DNA of 43,972 nucleotides from an uncultured Ectothiorhodospiraceae bacterium (GCA_913056315.1 CAJXMZ010000005.1:1-43972); one strand, 5' to 3'; shown: positions 35,873 through 43,972, numbered from the stretch's first letter. Translations and numbers: made by a program. Notes: generated by a model not told the origin, from the letters alone.

Positions 35873-37669
35873 ATGGATCAGATCAGAAACTTCTCAATCA
35901 TCGCGCACATCGATCATGGTAAGTCCACGCTGGCCGACCGGCTGATTGAGCGCTCCAGTAGCTACAGTGCCCGGCATTCGAGTGAGCAAATGCTCGACTC
36001 GATGGATTTGGAGCGAGAGCGTGGCATAACCATTAAAGCGCAAAGTGTGTCGCTCGATTACACCACGCAAGATGGCCAGACCTACCAGCTCAACTTTATT
36101 GACACCCCAGGGCATGTGGACTTCTCCTATGAGGTGAGCCGCTCGCTCTATGCATGCGAGGGCGCGCTGTTGCTGGTGGACGCTTCGCAAGGGGTGGAAG
36201 CGCAGAGTGTGGCGAACTGCTACACCGCGGTTGAACAGGGTTTAGAGGTTATCCCGGTTTTGAATAAGATCGATTTGCCCTCGGCCGAGCCTGATCAAGT
36301 CATTCAGCAAATTGAAGAGATTATTGGCCTAGATGGTGCCGAGGTGCTGCCCATTAGCGCTAAAAGCGGCTTGGGTGTTGATGATCTGCTCGAGGCACTG
36401 ATTAAACGCATCCCACCACCGCAGGGTAATCCTGACGGCCCGCTCAAAGCGCTCATTATTGACTCGTGGTTTGATAACTACCTTGGGGTGGTTTGTTTGG
36501 TGCGGGTGTTTGACGGTGAGCTGCGTAAGGGTGAGCGCATTAAGGTGATGTCCACCGGGCGTGAGTTTCAGGTGGATGAATTGGGAATTTTCACCCCGCA
36601 GCGCACCCCATGGGACTCGCTAAGCGCTGGGCGCGTGGGCTTTGTGGTAGCCGGTATAAAAGACATTGATGGAGCGCCGGTCGGCGATACGCTGACCCAT
36701 GCCAAACAGCCAACGCAAGTCGCGGTGCCTGGCTTTAAACGTGTTCAGCCTCGAGTTTTTGCCGGTGTTTTTCCGATTAGCTCTGATGACTATGAGGGCT
36801 TTCGCGACGCGCTTGGCAAGTTGCGACTCAACGATGCAGCGCTGGCATTTGAGCCGGAGAATTCTGAAGCACTGGGTTTTGGGTTTCGCATCGGCTTTTT
36901 GGGCATGCTGCACATGGAGATCGTCCAAGAGCGCTTAGAGCGCGAATATGGACTCGATCTTATTACCACCGCGCCAACCGTGGTGCATGAGGTCATCGAC
37001 AAAGAAGGCGTTACGCACCGGGTGCATAACCCGTCCGATCTGCCCCCAGTGAATAGCATGGAGTCGATTCTCGAGCCGATCATTCACGCTAACATTTTGG
37101 TGCCGCAGGCCTATGTGGGCGCAGTAATCAAGCTTTGCGAAGACAAGCGTGGTACGCAAAAGGGCATGCAATACGTCGGCAATCAGCTGTCGCTAGATTA
37201 TGAAATGCCCATGGGTGAGGTCGTCTTAGACTTTTTTGATCGGCTGAAATCTGCAACCCGGGGCTATGCCTCGTTTGATTATGAGTTTCGGCGCTTTCAG
37301 GCCGAGCGTTTGGTAAAGCTCGATATTTTAGTCAACGGCGATCGGGTGGATGCGCTTTCTGTGATTGTCCACCGCGATCAGGCCGAGGGCCGTGGGCGAG
37401 AATTAACCGAACGACTCAAAGAGATCATCCCGCGGCAAATGTTTGAAGTCGCGATTCAGGCGGCGATTGGCAGTAAAATTATTGCGCGCTCTTCGGTCAA
37501 GGCGTTACGTAAGAACGTGACGGCCAAGTGCTATGGTGGTGATATCACTCGAAAGAAAAAACTGCTCGAAAAGCAAAAGCAGGGCAAACGCCGCATGAAG
37601 CAAGTGGGGCGGGTCGAAATTCCTCAGGATGCCTTCTTGGCTGTTCTTCAGGTTGATCAGGGCAAGTAG
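35873..37669 (+). CDS. lepA: Elongation factor 4 (LepA)
   Basis: [45 protein letters not shown]-terminal [41 protein letters not shown]. Confidence 0.98.
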
Positions 37670-37692
37670 AAAGATAGCGGAGGGCGCTGGGG

Positions 37693-38430
37693 ATGTTGGA
37701 TTTTGAGGCCATTATAGTCGTTGTCACGCTTGTCAGCGGCGTGGTTTGGAGCTTTGATCGACTGCGCCGACGCCATCGTGCCGCCGATGCCGGGGTGTCT
37801 TGGTGGGTTGATTTAGGTCGCTCGCTCTTTCCGGTACTACTCATTGTGCTCATCGTGCGCTCGTTTATTGTCGAGCCCTTTCGCATTCCCTCAGGTTCTA
37901 TGTTGCCAACCCTAGAGGCCGGCGACTTTATCTTGGTCAATAAATTTGGTTACGGCTTACGCCTGCCGGTCATGCACACGCTTATTGCCCCCGTAGGTGA
38001 CCCCGACCGAGGCGATGTCGCGGTATTTCGCTATCCGGTCGAACCCGCGCAAGATTACATTAAGCGCATTATTGGACTGCCGGGCGATACGGTGAGTTAT
38101 CAAAACAAACGCTTGACCATTAATGGCGAAGTTTTGCCCACTGAGCGACTGGGTGACTGGGGAGAAGACGCCTCGTTTGCGCTGATTCGCGAGCAAATTG
38201 ATGGTGATTGGCACCAGGCATTGGTTAACCGGCAATCACCGGCTCGGGGGTTTAGCTACACCGTGCCCGCGGGTGAGTATTTTGTCATGGGTGATAACCG
38301 CGATCGCAGCAGCGATAGCCGTTTTTGGGGCCCGGTACCCCGTGATCATCTCGTGGGGCGCGCGTTTTTTATTTGGTTAAGCTGGAATGGAGGCCCGAAT
38401 TGGGGGCGCATGGGTAATGTCATTGAATAA
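37693..38430 (+). CDS. lepB: Signal peptidase I
   Basis: IVRSFIVEPFRIPSGSMLPTLEAGDFILVNKFGYG, YIKRIIGLPGDTV, GEYFVMGDNRDRSSDSRFWGPVP. Confidence 0.97.
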   Translation: MLDFEAIIVVVTLVSGVVWSFDRLRRRHRAADAGVSWWVDLGRSLFPVLLIVLIVRSFIVEPFRIPSGSMLPTLEAGDFILVNKFGYGLRLPVMHTLIAPVGDPDRGDVAVFRYPVEPAQDYIKRIIGLPGDTVSYQNKRLTINGEVLPTERLGDWGEDASFALIREQIDGDWHQALVNRQSPARGFSYTVPAGEYFVMGDNRDRSSDSRFWGPVPRDHLVGRAFFIWLSWNGGPNWGRMGNVIE

Positions 38431-38451
38431 TGCCAATCGGTGCGGTGGCTA

Positions 38452-39156
38452 ATGACTGAATTACAATCGCTCGCCGATCGTGTGGGCTGGCAGTTTAGTG
38501 ATCCTAGTTTGTTGCGCCAAGCGGTAACTCATCGCAGCGCCAGCGGGCCAAATAACGAGCGCTTAGAGTTTTTAGGCGATGCCATTTTAAATTTTGTCAT
38601 TGCGGCAGAAATTTTCGAACGCCGCCCTGATTTGCGTGAGGGTGAGCTCAGTCGTCTGCGTGCTGCCTTGGTTAATAAAAACGCGCTGGCTGAAATTGCC
38701 CGCGAGATTGAGTTGGGTGAGCAAATTCTGCTCGGTAGCGGTGAGTTAAAAACCGGCGGGCGACGGCGCGATTCTATACTGGCCGACTCGCTAGAAGCAG
38801 TGATTGGTGCGGTCTACCTGGACGGTGGTTATGCGGGCGGTAGAGAATTAATTCTTCGCCTTTATGCGGCGCATTTGCGCGCTTTGCCCGATATGCAGGC
38901 ACACAAAGACCCAAAAACACGCTTGCAAGAGTACCTGCAAGCCCGCGGGCTTGAATTGCCGAGCTACGCGGTCGAAAACATTAGCGGCCAAGCACACGAC
39001 CAAACCTTTCGTGTGGTCTGCGCAAGCGAGATCCTTGCGCAAAGTGGTGAGGGGGTTGCCGGTAATCGTCGCCAGGCTGAACAAGCGGCGGCGGCCGATT
39101 TGTTATCCAAGTTGCAACCCAATGCCGATACACCAGTAAGGGGTGGGCATGAGTAA
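38452..39156 (+). CDS. rnc: Ribonuclease III
   Basis: FSDPSLLRQAVTHRSASGPNNERLEFLGDAILNFVIAAEIF, DSLEAVIGAVYLDGG, C-terminal dsRBD. Confidence 0.97.
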   Translation: MTELQSLADRVGWQFSDPSLLRQAVTHRSASGPNNERLEFLGDAILNFVIAAEIFERRPDLREGELSRLRAALVNKNALAEIAREIELGEQILLGSGELKTGGRRRDSILADSLEAVIGAVYLDGGYAGGRELILRLYAAHLRALPDMQAHKDPKTRLQEYLQARGLELPSYAVENISGQAHDQTFRVVCASEILAQSGEGVAGNRRQAEQAAAADLLSKLQPNADTPVRGGHE

Positions 39157-40060
39157 ACCCGACAACACCGATTTGCCAGCGGGGTTTGCCGCGTTGGTGG
39201 GCCGTCCTAACGTCGGTAAATCAACTTTGCTTAATGCGCTGCTTGGCCAAAAGGTCAGTATTGCTACGCGCAAACCGCAAACCACACGGCATCGCATTCT
39301 GGGTATTCACCAACGTGATGATGCGCAAATTATCTATGTCGATACGCCTGGGCTGCATGAAGGCGGCCGTACCGCGATGAATCGGTACTTAAACGATGCC
39401 GCCGGCAGCGCGTTGGGTGATGTGGATGCGGTTGTCATGCTGACCGAGGCCGGTCGTTGGACGGCCGCTGATGATCGGGTGTTGCAGCGCCTTGAAGGCA
39501 CGCGTGCCCCGGTGATTGCTGCAATTAATAAAGTGGATCGGATTCGCGATAAAAACCAGCTACTCCCTGAAATCGCTCAGGTTGATCAGCGTCGTGATTT
39601 TGCTGCTGTGGTGCCGGTGTCAGCGCAAAAGGCTGACAACCTAGACACACTGGAAGCAGCGATTATTGCGCAGCTGCCCAGCGGGCCGGCGTTGTTTCCG
39701 CGCGATCAGGTGACTGATCGAGGGGAGTCGTTTATGGCCGCCGAACTAGTGCGCGAGCAACTAACCATCATGCTGGGGGACGAGCTACCGTATGCCAGTA
39801 CCGTTGAAATCGAAGCCTTTGAGCAAGAAGGGCGATTACGCCGCATTGCCGCGATTATCTGGGTCGAGCGCAGTGGCCAGCGGCGTATTATGATTGGCGA
39901 GGGCGGCTCGCGGATTAAACAAATCGGCGCTCAAGCGCGTCATGAAATGGAGCGATTGTTTGATGCCCGCGTCTATCTCAAGCTTTGGGTTAAAGTGCGT
40001 GAAGGTTGGTCAGATGATGCTCGCATGCTCCAAGCACTAGGCTACACCCAACATCAATGA
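39149..40060 (+). CDS. era: GTPase Era
   Basis: LVGRPNVGKSTLLNALLGQKVSIATRKPQTTRHRILGI, DTPGLHE, NKVDRI, KH domain GEGGSRIKQIGAQARHEMERLFDARVYLKLWVKV. Confidence 0.98.
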   Translation: MSKPDNTDLPAGFAALVGRPNVGKSTLLNALLGQKVSIATRKPQTTRHRILGIHQRDDAQIIYVDTPGLHEGGRTAMNRYLNDAAGSALGDVDAVVMLTEAGRWTAADDRVLQRLEGTRAPVIAAINKVDRIRDKNQLLPEIAQVDQRRDFAAVVPVSAQKADNLDTLEAAIIAQLPSGPALFPRDQVTDRGESFMAAELVREQLTIMLGDELPYASTVEIEAFEQEGRLRRIAAIIWVERSGQRRIMIGEGGSRIKQIGAQARHEMERLFDARVYLKLWVKVREGWSDDARMLQALGYTQHQ

Positions 40061-40812
40061 GCGCGGCAAGCCGCGATGCATCTCTAGAGCCCGCCTTTGT
40101 CCTGCATACGCGGGCTTACCGTAATACCAGCCTGATTTTAGACGTATTGGCTCGCGAGCATGGACGGGTTGCGTTGGTGGCGCGTGGGGCACGGGGGCAG
40201 CGCTCGCGCACGGCTGGATTACTCCAGCCTTTTCAGCCATTGGCCATGTCGTGGCGGCTGCGCGGTGAAATGGGCACTTTGCAACAAGTCGAGGCGGCTG
40301 GGCAGCCGCTGCGCTTGCAAGGCCGGCGTTTAGTCAGTGGATTGTATGGCAACGAGCTATTGATTCGCGTTTTAGGCCGAGAAGATCCTCACCCCGGGCT
40401 ATTTGAAGGTTATGTTCAACTGCTCGAGGCGCTGGCATCAAACGCCCCTGAAGGCCCCGCATTGCGCTGCTTTGAGCGCGATCTCTTAAGTCTATTGGGC
40501 TATGGGTTGGCGTTGGAGACCGACACGCAGGCCAATGCGCTGGTGCCCGATCAATGGTACCGGTACGATCCGTCTCAGGGCGCAACCCCGGTGGTTGGTC
40601 CGCAGGTCGGCGGGCTCGTAGTGCAGGGACAGCAGCTGCTTGCGCTGGCGGCTGATCCGATTACAGCCGATACCGCGCGGGCCACACGAGCACTCATGCG
40701 TGCAGCATTAAGCCTGCATTTAGGGGGGCGGCCACTGAAAAGCCGCGAGCTTTATGCACGCTACCCAACCAAAGGAGAACCAGAGCATGGCGCATCATCA
40801 GGGCAGTCTTGA
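40057..40812 (+). CDS. recO: DNA repair protein RecO
   Basis: [60 protein letters not shown] coupling with era. Confidence 0.95.
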
Positions 40813-41536
40813 GCCTTTGCTTGGGGTGAACGTTGATCATATCGCCGGGCTGCGGCAGGCCCGGGGTACGCGTTATCCCGACCCGGTCATGGCCGCGCAA
40901 CTGGCTGAGCAGGCAGGCGCCGATGCCATTACGGTGCATTTACGCGAGGACCGTCGGCATATTGTGGATGCTGATATCGATCGGTTAGCGCAAGCGCTGC
41001 AAACGCGTATGAATTTGGAAATGGCCAATACCGCGGAAATGATTCAAATCGCGCAGCGAGTCCAGCCCAGCGATTGCTGTTTAGTGCCGGAGCGTCGTGC
41101 TGAGCTAACAACCGAAGGCGGGTTGGATGTTGCCGGTACACTGCCGGCGTGTCAGAAAGCCTGCCAGGCCCTGGCTGATGCCGGGATTCGGGTATCGTTA
41201 TTTGTCGACCCGGATGCCGAGCAATTGCATGCAGCGCGCGAGGCGGGGGCATCGGTCATTGAGCTGCACACCGGGGCGTTTGCCGATGCCACCACCGATG
41301 CGAGCATTCATGCAGAGTTTCAGCGTATCCAACAAGCTGCGCAGCTGGGTCAATCGCTTGGCTTACAGGTCAACGCGGGGCATGGGCTGCACTACCACAA
41401 CGTCGCGCCCATCGCTGCGCTGTCAGAAATTACCGAGCTCAACATTGGCCATGCCATTGTTGCCCGCGCGGTGTTTGTGGGGTTGGATAGTGCGGTACGT
41501 GAGATGAAGCGTCTAATTCGTGAGGCAAGGCATTGA
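40787..41536 (+). CDS. pdxJ: Pyridoxine 5'-phosphate synthase
   Basis: [76 protein letters not shown]. Confidence 0.97.
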
Positions 41537-41925
41537 GCATTCTTGGGCTTGGGACCGATATTGTTTCGGTGGACCGGTTCGCCCATATGCTTGAAGCGCA
41601 TAGCGAGCGCCTGGCTGTGCGTTTGCTCGCGAGTGCGGAAATGGCCGACTATCAGCTAGCCGCCGCCACCCCGCGCGGCGCTGCGGCGTTTTTAGCGCGG
41701 CGATTCGCGGCCAAAGAAGCCGGCGCTAAGGCGTTGGGCTGTGGGATTGGTGCCAAGGCAAGTTTTCGTGAACTTGTGGTTGAGCATACGCCCACCGGTG
41801 CGCCGCGCATGGCGTTCAGCGGCAAAGCGCTTGAGACCGCCAACCAACTGGGCGTCAAGCAGGTGCACTTAAGTATTAGCGATGAGCACACCCACGCCAC
41901 CGCCGTGGTTATTCTCGAGCGCTAG
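41533..41925 (+). CDS. acpS: Holo-[acyl-carrier-protein] synthase
   Basis: TTG start; [61 protein letters not shown]. Confidence 0.97.
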
Positions 41926-41926
41926 C

Positions 41927-43972
41927 CTAATCGGCGGTCAATAAGACTTGCTCAAGCCATTGCCCATTTAAGCGATCGCTCAAGCGATTTTGTTGCTGGC
42001 GCGCGGCTAAATTATCCAAGTCAATCCAAGTCAAAGGCTGATCTTGCCCCGCGCACGAGAATACCGGTCGGGTTCGCTCGCCGGTGTCTGGATCAATTTG
42101 CCATTGCAAGCACTGCGCACACACCCCTTGCATCATGCATTGCATTGGGCTGCCAACCGTTCCAAAGGCATCGCAATCCCTGGCAACCAGGCCTTTGAGA
42201 TCGCCTTTAACCGCCGCCTGAAAGCCCTTGAGCAAGCCGGTGCCCCCCATCACCATAATGCGATCGACATCACCCAGCGCGATGCCGTTTTGCGCCGGGC
42301 CAATCTCGCCGGCGCCATAGCGTTTCACCACATCAATCATGTCAGTGGCCTGCAAGCTAATATCTTGTGGTCGTCGCGCGCTGATGGTTTGCTCTTTGGC
42401 TGTACACCAAATGATTTGGTCAGCGCCGGCTTCGAGTTCGTCTTGATGATCGACATCCCCGGCTGCCCCAAAAGCGGCCACATACAACACGCGGTTGCCT
42501 GCGGCACGTAAGGCGGCTCCAATATCAAGCATAACCGCCGCGCCCCAGCGCCCGGCCACCACCATAATGGTTCGACCGCTAGGCAAATCGGTGGGCGCAC
42601 CGGTGGGGCCCATGAGGACTAATGGGTCACCGGGTTGCAGGCGGCCAACCAAGCGCGGTCCAGCGCCCCATTGCAACACCATGAGCCGAATACAATCGTC
42701 TTTCACGCCAGTCCCAGACACGGTAATGAGCGGGATCTGCAAGCGTGTGTTGGCCACGATGGGAGAGAGGGACTCAAAGGTTTGCAAGCGAAAGAATTGG
42801 CCGGCCTTAAAATTGCGTGCCGCCATGGGTGCATGGACCCACACTTCTACCATCGCAGGGTTATCCCGCCGGACTTCAACCACGCGGGCAATGAATAAAT
42901 CATCCATCGTGGTTAAAAACGCGCTATGGGTTTGTTCGCTTGCCGGCTCGGCATGCGCCATGGCGGCCTGAACATAGGGATAGGTGCGCATACCCGAGGC
43001 GATTGCTTTGACCACGCTGCCATGGAACGCGGGGTGGGTATCGCCAATAAAGCTGACTCGCCGGCCACCTTGTTGATAGGAGGTGAATGGCCCGAATTGA
43101 TCTTCTTTGCAATGCGCAGCATCGGCGACTGGAGCAAGTCCTTGTTCGGTGTCGTTGTGGGCGAGGAAGTGATTGCCCTCTAGCGCAAAGGTATCGGCGT
43201 ATTCACGCTCGTAAATGGTATTGGGGACTGTGCCGGCGGCGATAAAAATCGCGCGTGCAGCCAATCGTCGTTCGCTGCCGGTTGGTGACCATTTACCCTC
43301 GTGTTCGGCGAGCTCGCGACACACTAAAGCGCTCACGTGATCGTATTCGTCCAGCTCAGCATGTAAGGGCTCAAGGCCTTGAGCATAAAACAGGCCCTCT
43401 TCGGTCGCCTTTGTGACTTCCTCGTGGTTTCGCACATAGGCAGGCGAGTCTGTCATTCCCTTGCGATAAGCCACCGTAACCCCACCCCATGCACGGATGA
43501 GCGGATTAAAGTCGGGTTCACGCCCTTGGCTTGCGGCGCTGTGGCGTTCGGCACGCACGGCTTGGCCATGGGCAATAAACTCAGCCAAAGTGGCTTGATC
43601 CTCATCGTTCATACCCGCGGTGACGGCCGCTTCGCCCAGCTGCTCGCGCAAGCGCTCATAGCGATCAAGCATCTTTTCGACTTGCTTGATGTAATAGGCC
43701 TGCACTTCGGTTGCCGTATCAATGCCGGTGAGTCCGCCGCCGACAACTACCGCGGGCAGTCGAACTTGAAGGCTGGCAAGCGACGATGACTTGGCCGCGC
43801 CGGTCAGCTGCAGGGCCATGAGAAAGTCACTGGCCTGACGCATGCCGCGGGCAAGGCTATTGCCCATATTCACCACCCGCGGTAAGCCTGCGCCGGTGGC
43901 ATTGACCACATGGTCAAAGCCCAACGCCCAGGCATCATCTAGGGTGACCGTGCCGCCCAAACGCACACCGCC
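41927..43972 (-). CDS. Fused flavoprotein: GltD/NfnB-like NAD(P)-binding domain + PyrK/NfnA-like ferredoxin-NADP reductase domain with C-terminal [2Fe-2S] cysteines; N-terminus outside the window
   Basis: Open to the window edge. VVNATGAGLPR, AVVVGGGLTGIDTATEV, AIFIAAGTVPN, FIGDTHPAFHGSVVKAIASG; then FKAGQFFRLQTFE, LVLMGPTGAPTDLPSGRTIMVVAGRWG, VMVMGGTG-type motif, C-terminal C-MMQGV-C-AQ-C...FS-C cluster. Confidence 0.85.
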   Translation of the reverse strand, partial: GGVRLGGTVTLDDAWALGFDHVVNATGAGLPRVVNMGNSLARGMRQASDFLMALQLTGAAKSSSLASLQVRLPAVVVGGGLTGIDTATEVQAYYIKQVEKMLDRYERLREQLGEAAVTAGMNDEDQATLAEFIAHGQAVRAERHSAASQGREPDFNPLIRAWGGVTVAYRKGMTDSPAYVRNHEEVTKATEEGLFYAQGLEPLHAELDEYDHVSALVCRELAEHEGKWSPTGSERRLAARAIFIAAGTVPNTIYEREYADTFALEGNHFLAHNDTEQGLAPVADAAHCKEDQFGPFTSYQQGGRRVSFIGDTHPAFHGSVVKAIASGMRTYPYVQAAMAHAEPASEQTHSAFLTTMDDLFIARVVEVRRDNPAMVEVWVHAPMAARNFKAGQFFRLQTFESLSPIVANTRLQIPLITVSGTGVKDDCIRLMVLQWGAGPRLVGRLQPGDPLVLMGPTGAPTDLPSGRTIMVVAGRWGAAVMLDIGAALRAAGNRVLYVAAFGAAGDVDHQDELEAGADQIIWCTAKEQTISARRPQDISLQATDMIDVVKRYGAGEIGPAQNGIALGDVDRIMVMGGTGLLKGFQAAVKGDLKGLVARDCDAFGTVGSPMQCMMQGVCAQCLQWQIDPDTGERTRPVFSCAGQDQPLTWIDLDNLAARQQQNRLSDRLNGQWLEQVLLTAD

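Follow-up and report, generated by a model that had tools for sequence, protein, structure and literature searches.

A fused flavoprotein gene at the end of the contig

The window, by which we mean the whole stretch of 43,972 nucleotides that was analysed, constitutes a complete contig (C5) of a metagenome-assembled genome (MAG; 134 contigs, 1.61 Mb, 86.5% complete). Its last genes comprise a conserved block, lepA-lepB-rnc-era-recO-pdxJ-acpS (35873-41925), in an ordinary housekeeping order, and convergent with this a minus-strand frame (41927-43972) of 681 codons that contains no internal stop and is open at the contig end. The closest relatives of the encoded fragment stem from Ectothiorhodospiraceae and Spiribacter MAGs (85–86% identity), and alignment to the 1162-residue Spiribacter homologue L004 places the fragment at residues 480–1160 (86% identity). 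A query made of residues 1–522 of the closest homologue did not locate the N-terminal half of the gene elsewhere in the MAG assembly: only the last 43 residues of this query were matched, at the contig end. The following features were assigned:

41927..43972, minus strand: fused Nfn-like flavoprotein gene, C-terminal 681 codons and stop; ~480 N-terminal residues missing (contig end)
42965..43972, minus strand: C-terminal part of the GltD/NfnB-like half, with the remaining FAD domain and the NAD(P) domain (NfnL profile; fold 5jca_L, 4ylf_B)
43721..43741, minus strand: GGGLTGI, the glycine-rich loop that binds the nucleotide in the NAD(P) Rossmann domain (Gly557–559 invariant in 41 relatives)
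43487..43696, minus strand: family-specific insertion, a helical hairpin within the NAD(P) domain (alignment, AlphaFold2 model)
43460..43468, minus strand: YRK at the place of the YRR NADP(H)-phosphate motif of NfnB, putative NADPH site (alignment)
43040..43048, minus strand: IGD, FAD-contacting Gly-Asp of the GltD fold (GD invariant; aligned to GGD of Nfn/GltD)
42155..42889, minus strand: PyrK/NfnA-like FNR-type FAD and NAD(P) reductase domain (NfnS profile; fold 5jca_S, 4ylf_A, TM by target 0.81–0.85)
42053..42139, minus strand: [2Fe-2S] site, fragment residues 612, 618, 621 and 640 (four Cys invariant in 41 relatives)

The original prediction had described a single ORF in which a GltD/NfnB-like part is followed by a PyrK/NfnA-like part, and this arrangement is supported by profile, fold and alignment. 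The motifs quoted at that time (GGGLTGIDTATEV, FIAAGTVPN, FIGDTHPAFHGSVVKAIASG and CMMQGVCAQC...FSC) are all found in frame, with the terminal Cys cluster exhibiting the full spacing C-x5-C-x2-C-x18-C. A Pfam scan of the fragment returned a sub-threshold Pyr_redox_2 match and no PyrK/FAD_binding_6-type match; Pfam alone is weak for this protein family. Presence of the protein in 22 of the 23 genomes of its own family and in 73 of the 369 sampled genomes of the class (Gammaproteobacteria), usually as a single copy, rules out a chance ORF, and the gene is also carried by the Acidithiobacillus caldus plasmid pTcM1 (NC_010600.1), where it is annotated as 'FAD-dependent oxidoreductase'. The protein encoded in the window is genuine and ordinary for its lineage, as well as uncharacterised.

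Domain architecture and cofactor ligands

Intact relatives are typically ~1140–1250 residues long in gammaproteobacteria and 985–1000 residues long in alphaproteobacterial relatives. An alignment of 41 intact relatives together with the window sequence revealed a shared order of domains: an all-helical, poorly conserved N-terminal domain (~1–190; mean identity 0.35) is followed by an Fe-S domain (236–380), a two-Rossmann FAD/NAD(P) unit of the GltD/NfnB-like type (384–815), an FNR-type FAD/NAD(P) reductase unit (841–1085) and finally a [2Fe-2S] segment with a helical tail (1086–1160). The AlphaFold2 model of L004 (mean pLDDT 88.3, pTM 0.88) was compared with known structures using Foldseek: for the first half, Xfn/NfnII and NfnI-L from P. 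furiosus and NfnB from T. maritima rank first (TM by target 0.79–0.83), with GltD showing lower values (0.70–0.75), whilst the second half matches NfnS/NfnA (0.80–0.85). Sequence profile searches gave the same ranking, with Nfn subunits best among the PDB entries.

The original prediction had been made dependent on NfnB-type Fe-S ligands in the N-terminal region. These ligands (245–344) were read from the full-length relatives, the window fragment beginning downstream of them: Cys245, 248, 256, 283, 323, 326 and 330 as well as Glu344 are kept in all 41, so that this ground for rejecting the prediction falls away. In both profile and multiple alignments, Glu344 (PVNIPQIE) pairs with the corresponding residue of P. 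furiosus NfnL (Glu in DPINIGKLE) and of fused Nfn (Glu in PVAIGRLE), and in T. maritima NfnB it is Glu117 that binds the proximal [4Fe-4S] cluster (PMC7596348). Two NfnB-type [4Fe-4S] clusters are hence expected, with the distal cluster predicted to be held by four Cys and the proximal cluster by three Cys and the Glu; the first Cys motif of the family is widened (C-x2-C-x7-C-x26-CP). At the [2Fe-2S] site, Cys1091, 1097, 1100 and 1119 are likewise present in 41/41 relatives, and neither these nor the window sequence exhibit an Asp there, the site being all-Cys instead; the corresponding motif of Nfn, DGTGMCGxCRx10CV, includes an Asp ligand and displays a potential of +80 mV (PMC6405883).

The nucleotide-binding regions present a mixed picture. 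At the position of the YRR motif, which in NfnB binds the phosphate of NADP(H) (PMC7596348), the window encodes YRK, and among the relatives Tyr is found in 40/41 and Arg in 41/41, with the third residue being Lys in 18 and Arg in 16 of the 41. All Nfn share a conserved arginine that is hydrogen-bonded to N5 of the bifurcating FAD (PMC6405883); Arg457, invariant in the 41 relatives, adjoins its position, with W458 falling there in an ungapped alignment, and Arg457 could be equated with the N5 arginine only if a gap of one residue were opened, within a loop of pLDDT <50. In the C-terminal half, profile alignment reveals an NAD loop of AGRWGAA as opposed to GGGVGVA in NfnS, which makes NAD(H) binding by this half unsure; a GGG-type loop is retained in other branches of the family (L007, L009).

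A helical hairpin shared by the whole family

The charged insertion after GGGLTGID, previously put at 90–100 residues and held to be unusual, is indeed present, but its length amounts to only ~66 residues net (73 residues between anchors compared to ~7 in NfnL), and as it is found in all relatives it is a trait of the whole protein family, which rules out a one-off insertion. Counted from the NAD(P) glycine loop to the next strand, the region comprises 73 residues in almost every gammaproteobacterial member (one has 69) and 47–48 residues in alphaproteobacterial members, as against ~7 in P. furiosus NfnL. In the L004 model it forms two long helices (560–591 and 602–627) with high pLDDT. Multiple alignment revealed no such hairpin in PRK12779 proteins, fused Nfn or GltD. 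Mean pairwise identity of the hairpin (0.56) matches that of the neighbouring part of the NAD(P) domain (0.60), and this level of conservation indicates that the hairpin is probably functional. The alphaproteobacterial relatives L009 and L014 (Finniella-like) combine their shorter hairpin with the absence of a ~50-residue stretch before the GD motif; by eye, the flavoprotein gene follows an apparent ADP/ATP translocase gene.

Gene neighbourhood and association with FdxA

Within its own genus, the flavoprotein gene is preceded by xseA, with guaB and guaA further out, and is convergent with acpS, pdxJ, recO, era, rnc, lepB and lepA. This neighbourhood is uninformative on function: neither fdxA nor any other redox gene is a neighbour of the flavoprotein gene in the genus, and no pyrD lies beside it in the window or the genus. 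The MAG itself contains two fdxA loci. Across the class, where FdxA is encoded in 297 of the 369 sampled genomes, fdxA is present in 72/73 carriers of the flavoprotein gene compared to 225/296 non-carriers (Fisher p = 7e-7, phylogeny ignored).

Physical linkage is observed as well, fdxA being the one partner that recurs near the flavoprotein gene in other bacterial families. At five loci (L087, L088, L090, L092 and L110), fdxA lies divergently upstream of the flavoprotein gene, across grxD, with nadA downstream in four of them; in L076 fdxA is three genes away, in L098 it lies co-directionally, four genes upstream, and on pTcM1 it is located directly upstream with a gap of 149 nt. In total, fdxA is near the flavoprotein gene in 7 of 48 neighbourhoods and on pTcM1, in three or four arrangements. 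By rough estimate, random placement would give such proximity in ~0.3 of 48 neighbourhoods, and the three arrangements alone correspond to p ~0.004; since most of the FdxA-linked loci share one gene order, the number of independent events is small (three or four). In 20 genomes with fdxA and without the flavoprotein gene, grxD was not found within ~4 kb of fdxA. The adjacency of fdxA in some lineages suggests a ferredoxin as the reaction partner of the fused flavoprotein.

The cluster at the five loci, made up of fdxA, the monothiol glutaredoxin gene grxD and the flavoprotein gene, the latter often followed by nadA (quinolinate synthase), suggests a link to Fe-S metabolism; a small gene resembling (2Fe-2S) ferredoxins is located downstream in several of them. 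A different setting is seen on pTcM1 (L138, NC_010600.1, 4755-12429), with a similar order in L098 (331-11242): a cassette encoding a GntR regulator, a PRK08275 fumarate-reductase-like flavoprotein, a HEAT-repeat protein, FdxA, the fused flavoprotein and an ABC transporter. As far as seen, a small Fer4 protein belongs to the cassette on pTcM1 only, and in L098 creatininase-like and glutamine-synthetase-like genes follow (by eye). The cassette has the appearance of a mobile catabolic module. The genome that contains L098 (G048) encodes two copies of the flavoprotein, one in the cassette and one elsewhere (L097), and one TAA is reported inside the cassette copy.

Proposed function and competing explanations

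In Nfn, NADPH reduces the FAD of NfnB, from which one electron passes via the [2Fe-2S] cluster and the second FAD to NAD+, whilst the other is transferred through two [4Fe-4S] clusters to ferredoxin (PMC8097209). The parts that serve the ferredoxin branch are all present in the fused flavoprotein family, whilst the high-potential branch is altered (Cys for Asp, AGRWGAA for GGGVGVA). For this reason, we favour an oxidoreductase with the architecture of Nfn that would act between ferredoxin (FdxA) and NAD(P)(H) and so link the FdxA pool to NAD(P)(H), an assignment that we regard as probable, with bifurcation less likely than not. The protein would be soluble and consist of one chain, an Fe-S flavoenzyme with the build of Nfn. 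Its GltD/NfnB-like half would exchange a hydride between NADPH or NADP+ and the FAD beside the Glu-ligated proximal [4Fe-4S] cluster, and through this cluster and the distal four-Cys [4Fe-4S] cluster electrons would move, in one direction or the other, between the FAD and a ferredoxin, with FdxA as the most likely candidate. In the PyrK/NfnA-like half, a second FAD and the four-Cys [2Fe-2S] cluster would connect the first FAD to NAD(H) or to another two-electron acceptor. Computation demonstrates the architecture, the ligands, the fold, the distribution and both the co-occurrence and the linkage of FdxA, whereas cofactor binding, substrates, direction of transfer and FdxA as the physical partner are in this scheme what we infer.

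Several more specific explanations have to be weighed against this. The best fold match, Xfn (5vj7_A), would fit an enzyme like P. furiosus NfnII/Xfn, i.e. a non-bifurcating NADPH:ferredoxin reductase whose C-terminal half does without NAD(H) and either serves another acceptor or is structural only. In NfnII, obstruction of the NADH site accounts for the lack of NAD-dependent activity (PMC8097209), and the AGRWGAA loop and the extra hairpin in the NAD(P) domain of the present family are in line with such a situation. However, the four Cys and the FNR-type fold of the second half are fully kept, which would be needless in a dead module, and the L007 and L009 branches maintain the GGG-type loop; we consider this reading quite possible, albeit short of probable. 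Somewhat unlikely in our view is a true flavin-based bifurcating, ferredoxin-dependent transhydrogenase like NfnAB, in which the FAD of the GltD-like half would split the electron pair of NADPH between FdxA, at low potential, and NAD+, reached through the second half, or which would operate in reverse to make NADPH. The modules, the cluster ligands and the fold are the same as in Nfn, the invariant Arg457 adjoins the position of the N5 arginine and the gene is linked to that of a ferredoxin, yet the Asp ligand that sets the +80 mV of the Nfn [2Fe-2S] cluster is replaced by Cys, it is W458 that falls on the Nfn arginine in the ungapped alignment of this poorly modelled loop, and the second half has a changed NAD loop. 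Nfn carriers are moreover mostly anaerobes (PMC6405883), and the flavoprotein gene does not exclude pntB, which is present in 48/73 carriers and 156/296 other genomes. An elaborated version, in which the family would be a second, structurally distinct lineage of bifurcating transhydrogenases in aerobic gammaproteobacteria, with FdxA on the low-potential side, the all-Cys [2Fe-2S] cluster on the high-potential side and the hairpin and N-terminal domain involved in docking or gating, must be rated as unlikely. The pntB counts also leave unsupported the idea of a substitute for the proton-translocating transhydrogenase, as they differ in the opposite direction (p = 0.05).

The cassette on NC_010600.1, its similar order in L098 and the ABC transporter genes that adjoin the flavoprotein gene in L105 too could be taken to indicate that the protein gives electrons to, or takes them from, a single oxidoreductase pathway to which it is dedicated. 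Most carriers, including those of the own genus, show no such cassette at the gene, however, and the near-universal presence in the own family fits a housekeeping role better; we consider a dedicated partner distinctly improbable. The glutamate synthase small subunit GltD, as implied by NCBIfam-style names, shares the GltD-like domain, and the nearest model is named for a glutamate synthase subunit beta. We nevertheless reject this assignment as highly improbable: the own genome encodes a separate, ordinary GltD of 478 codons (L123), so that its glutamate synthase is not short of a small subunit, profile and fold favour Nfn, no gltB was seen among those neighbours that were identified in the neighbourhoods examined, and the fused PyrK-like half would have no role in glutamate synthase.

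To our knowledge, the route by which electrons pass between FdxA and the NAD(P)(H) pools is not settled. A widespread Nfn-like enzyme that is genetically linked to fdxA represents a concrete candidate for this exchange and one that can be tested in cultured hosts, for instance Acidithiobacillus caldus or Spiribacter. Should the enzyme prove to be bifurcating, flavin-based bifurcation would reach ordinary aerobes, and its non-Nfn set of clusters would provide a test of what bifurcation requires. The interest of the gene lies in the FdxA link and in this testable question, rather than in any peculiarity of the insertion to this gene.

Comparison with known systems

When compared to NfnAB/NfnI (T. 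maritima 4YLF, P. furiosus 5JCA), the family shares the folds of both halves, the seven Cys and the Glu, the FAD sites and the YR of the NADP motif; it differs in being single-chain, in its N-terminal helical domain, hairpin and widened first Cys motif, and in its four-Cys [2Fe-2S] site and altered NAD loop, with an identity of 17–19% in fold alignments. P. furiosus NfnII/Xfn (5VJ7), an Nfn-like NADPH:ferredoxin reductase (PMC8097209), provides the top fold match but consists of two subunits and lacks a hairpin of this kind. DsrL is likewise an NfnB-like NAD(P)H:acceptor oxidoreductase, and DsrL-1A has an insertion of ~32 residues in the NAD(P) domain (PMC7596348); here, however, a C-terminal ferredoxin domain replaces the PyrK-like half, and DsrL occurs together with dsrAB. 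GltD resembles the first half in fold but lacks both the PyrK-like half and the hairpin. PyrK, the electron-transfer subunit of DHODB, also exhibits a four-Cys [2Fe-2S] site after an FNR-type domain, a likeness confined to the C-terminal half.

Amongst named families, NCBIfam NF005128/PRK06567 (1031 positions) is the nearest, being the best family match of every member scanned. The model is matched along nearly its whole length and in the same domain order (positions 5–699, 738–925 and 933–1029), with scores of 267 bits for the fragment, 593–640 bits for the full-length members scanned alongside it and ~450–640 bits for full-length members overall. Its curated cut-off of 1072 bits was reached in no genome searched (0/23 genomes of the own family), and it misses every gammaproteobacterial member searched. 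Unlike the alphaproteobacterial relatives found here, the gammaproteobacterial members have a longer hairpin (73 vs 47–48 residues) and an extra ~50 residues before the GD motif. The model bears the title 'putative bifunctional glutamate synthase subunit beta/2-polyprenylphenol hydroxylase', a name that probably misleads. A literature search on PRK06567-like enzymes revealed no characterised member.

The novelty claimed in the original prediction must be qualified, as a fusion in the order NfnB-NfnA has already been published as 'Pattern C' by Liang et al. 2019, who called it uncharacterised (PMC6405883), and both the PRK06567 and PRK12779 models exist; what stands is the distinctness of the family from PRK12779. 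Judged by its architecture, PRK12779 is probably of the Pattern C type, and its proteins resemble the present family in joining an NfnB-like and then an NfnA-like half in one chain with an extra N-terminal region. Its members from the same phylum (L113 and others) nonetheless lack the hairpin and keep both YRR and the Asp-Cys3 [2Fe-2S] motif VDATGMCGAC. The fragment scores only 59 bits and full-length members 62–105 bits against the PRK12779 model (cut-off 1519 bits), and the N-terminal domains remain unaligned, the profile-profile match starting no earlier than the Fe-S domain (L004 residue 232, L113 residue 185). A tree built from the GltD-like core places 15 PRK06567-like proteins on a long branch apart from PRK12779, fused Nfn and GltD (100/100), although according to the tree tool's warning such long branches leave the deeper joins unsure. 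Score, hairpin, Asp ligand, N-terminal domain and tree together rule out membership of PRK12779/Pattern C: the fused flavoproteins form a family of their own, Nfn-like and distinct from PRK12779.
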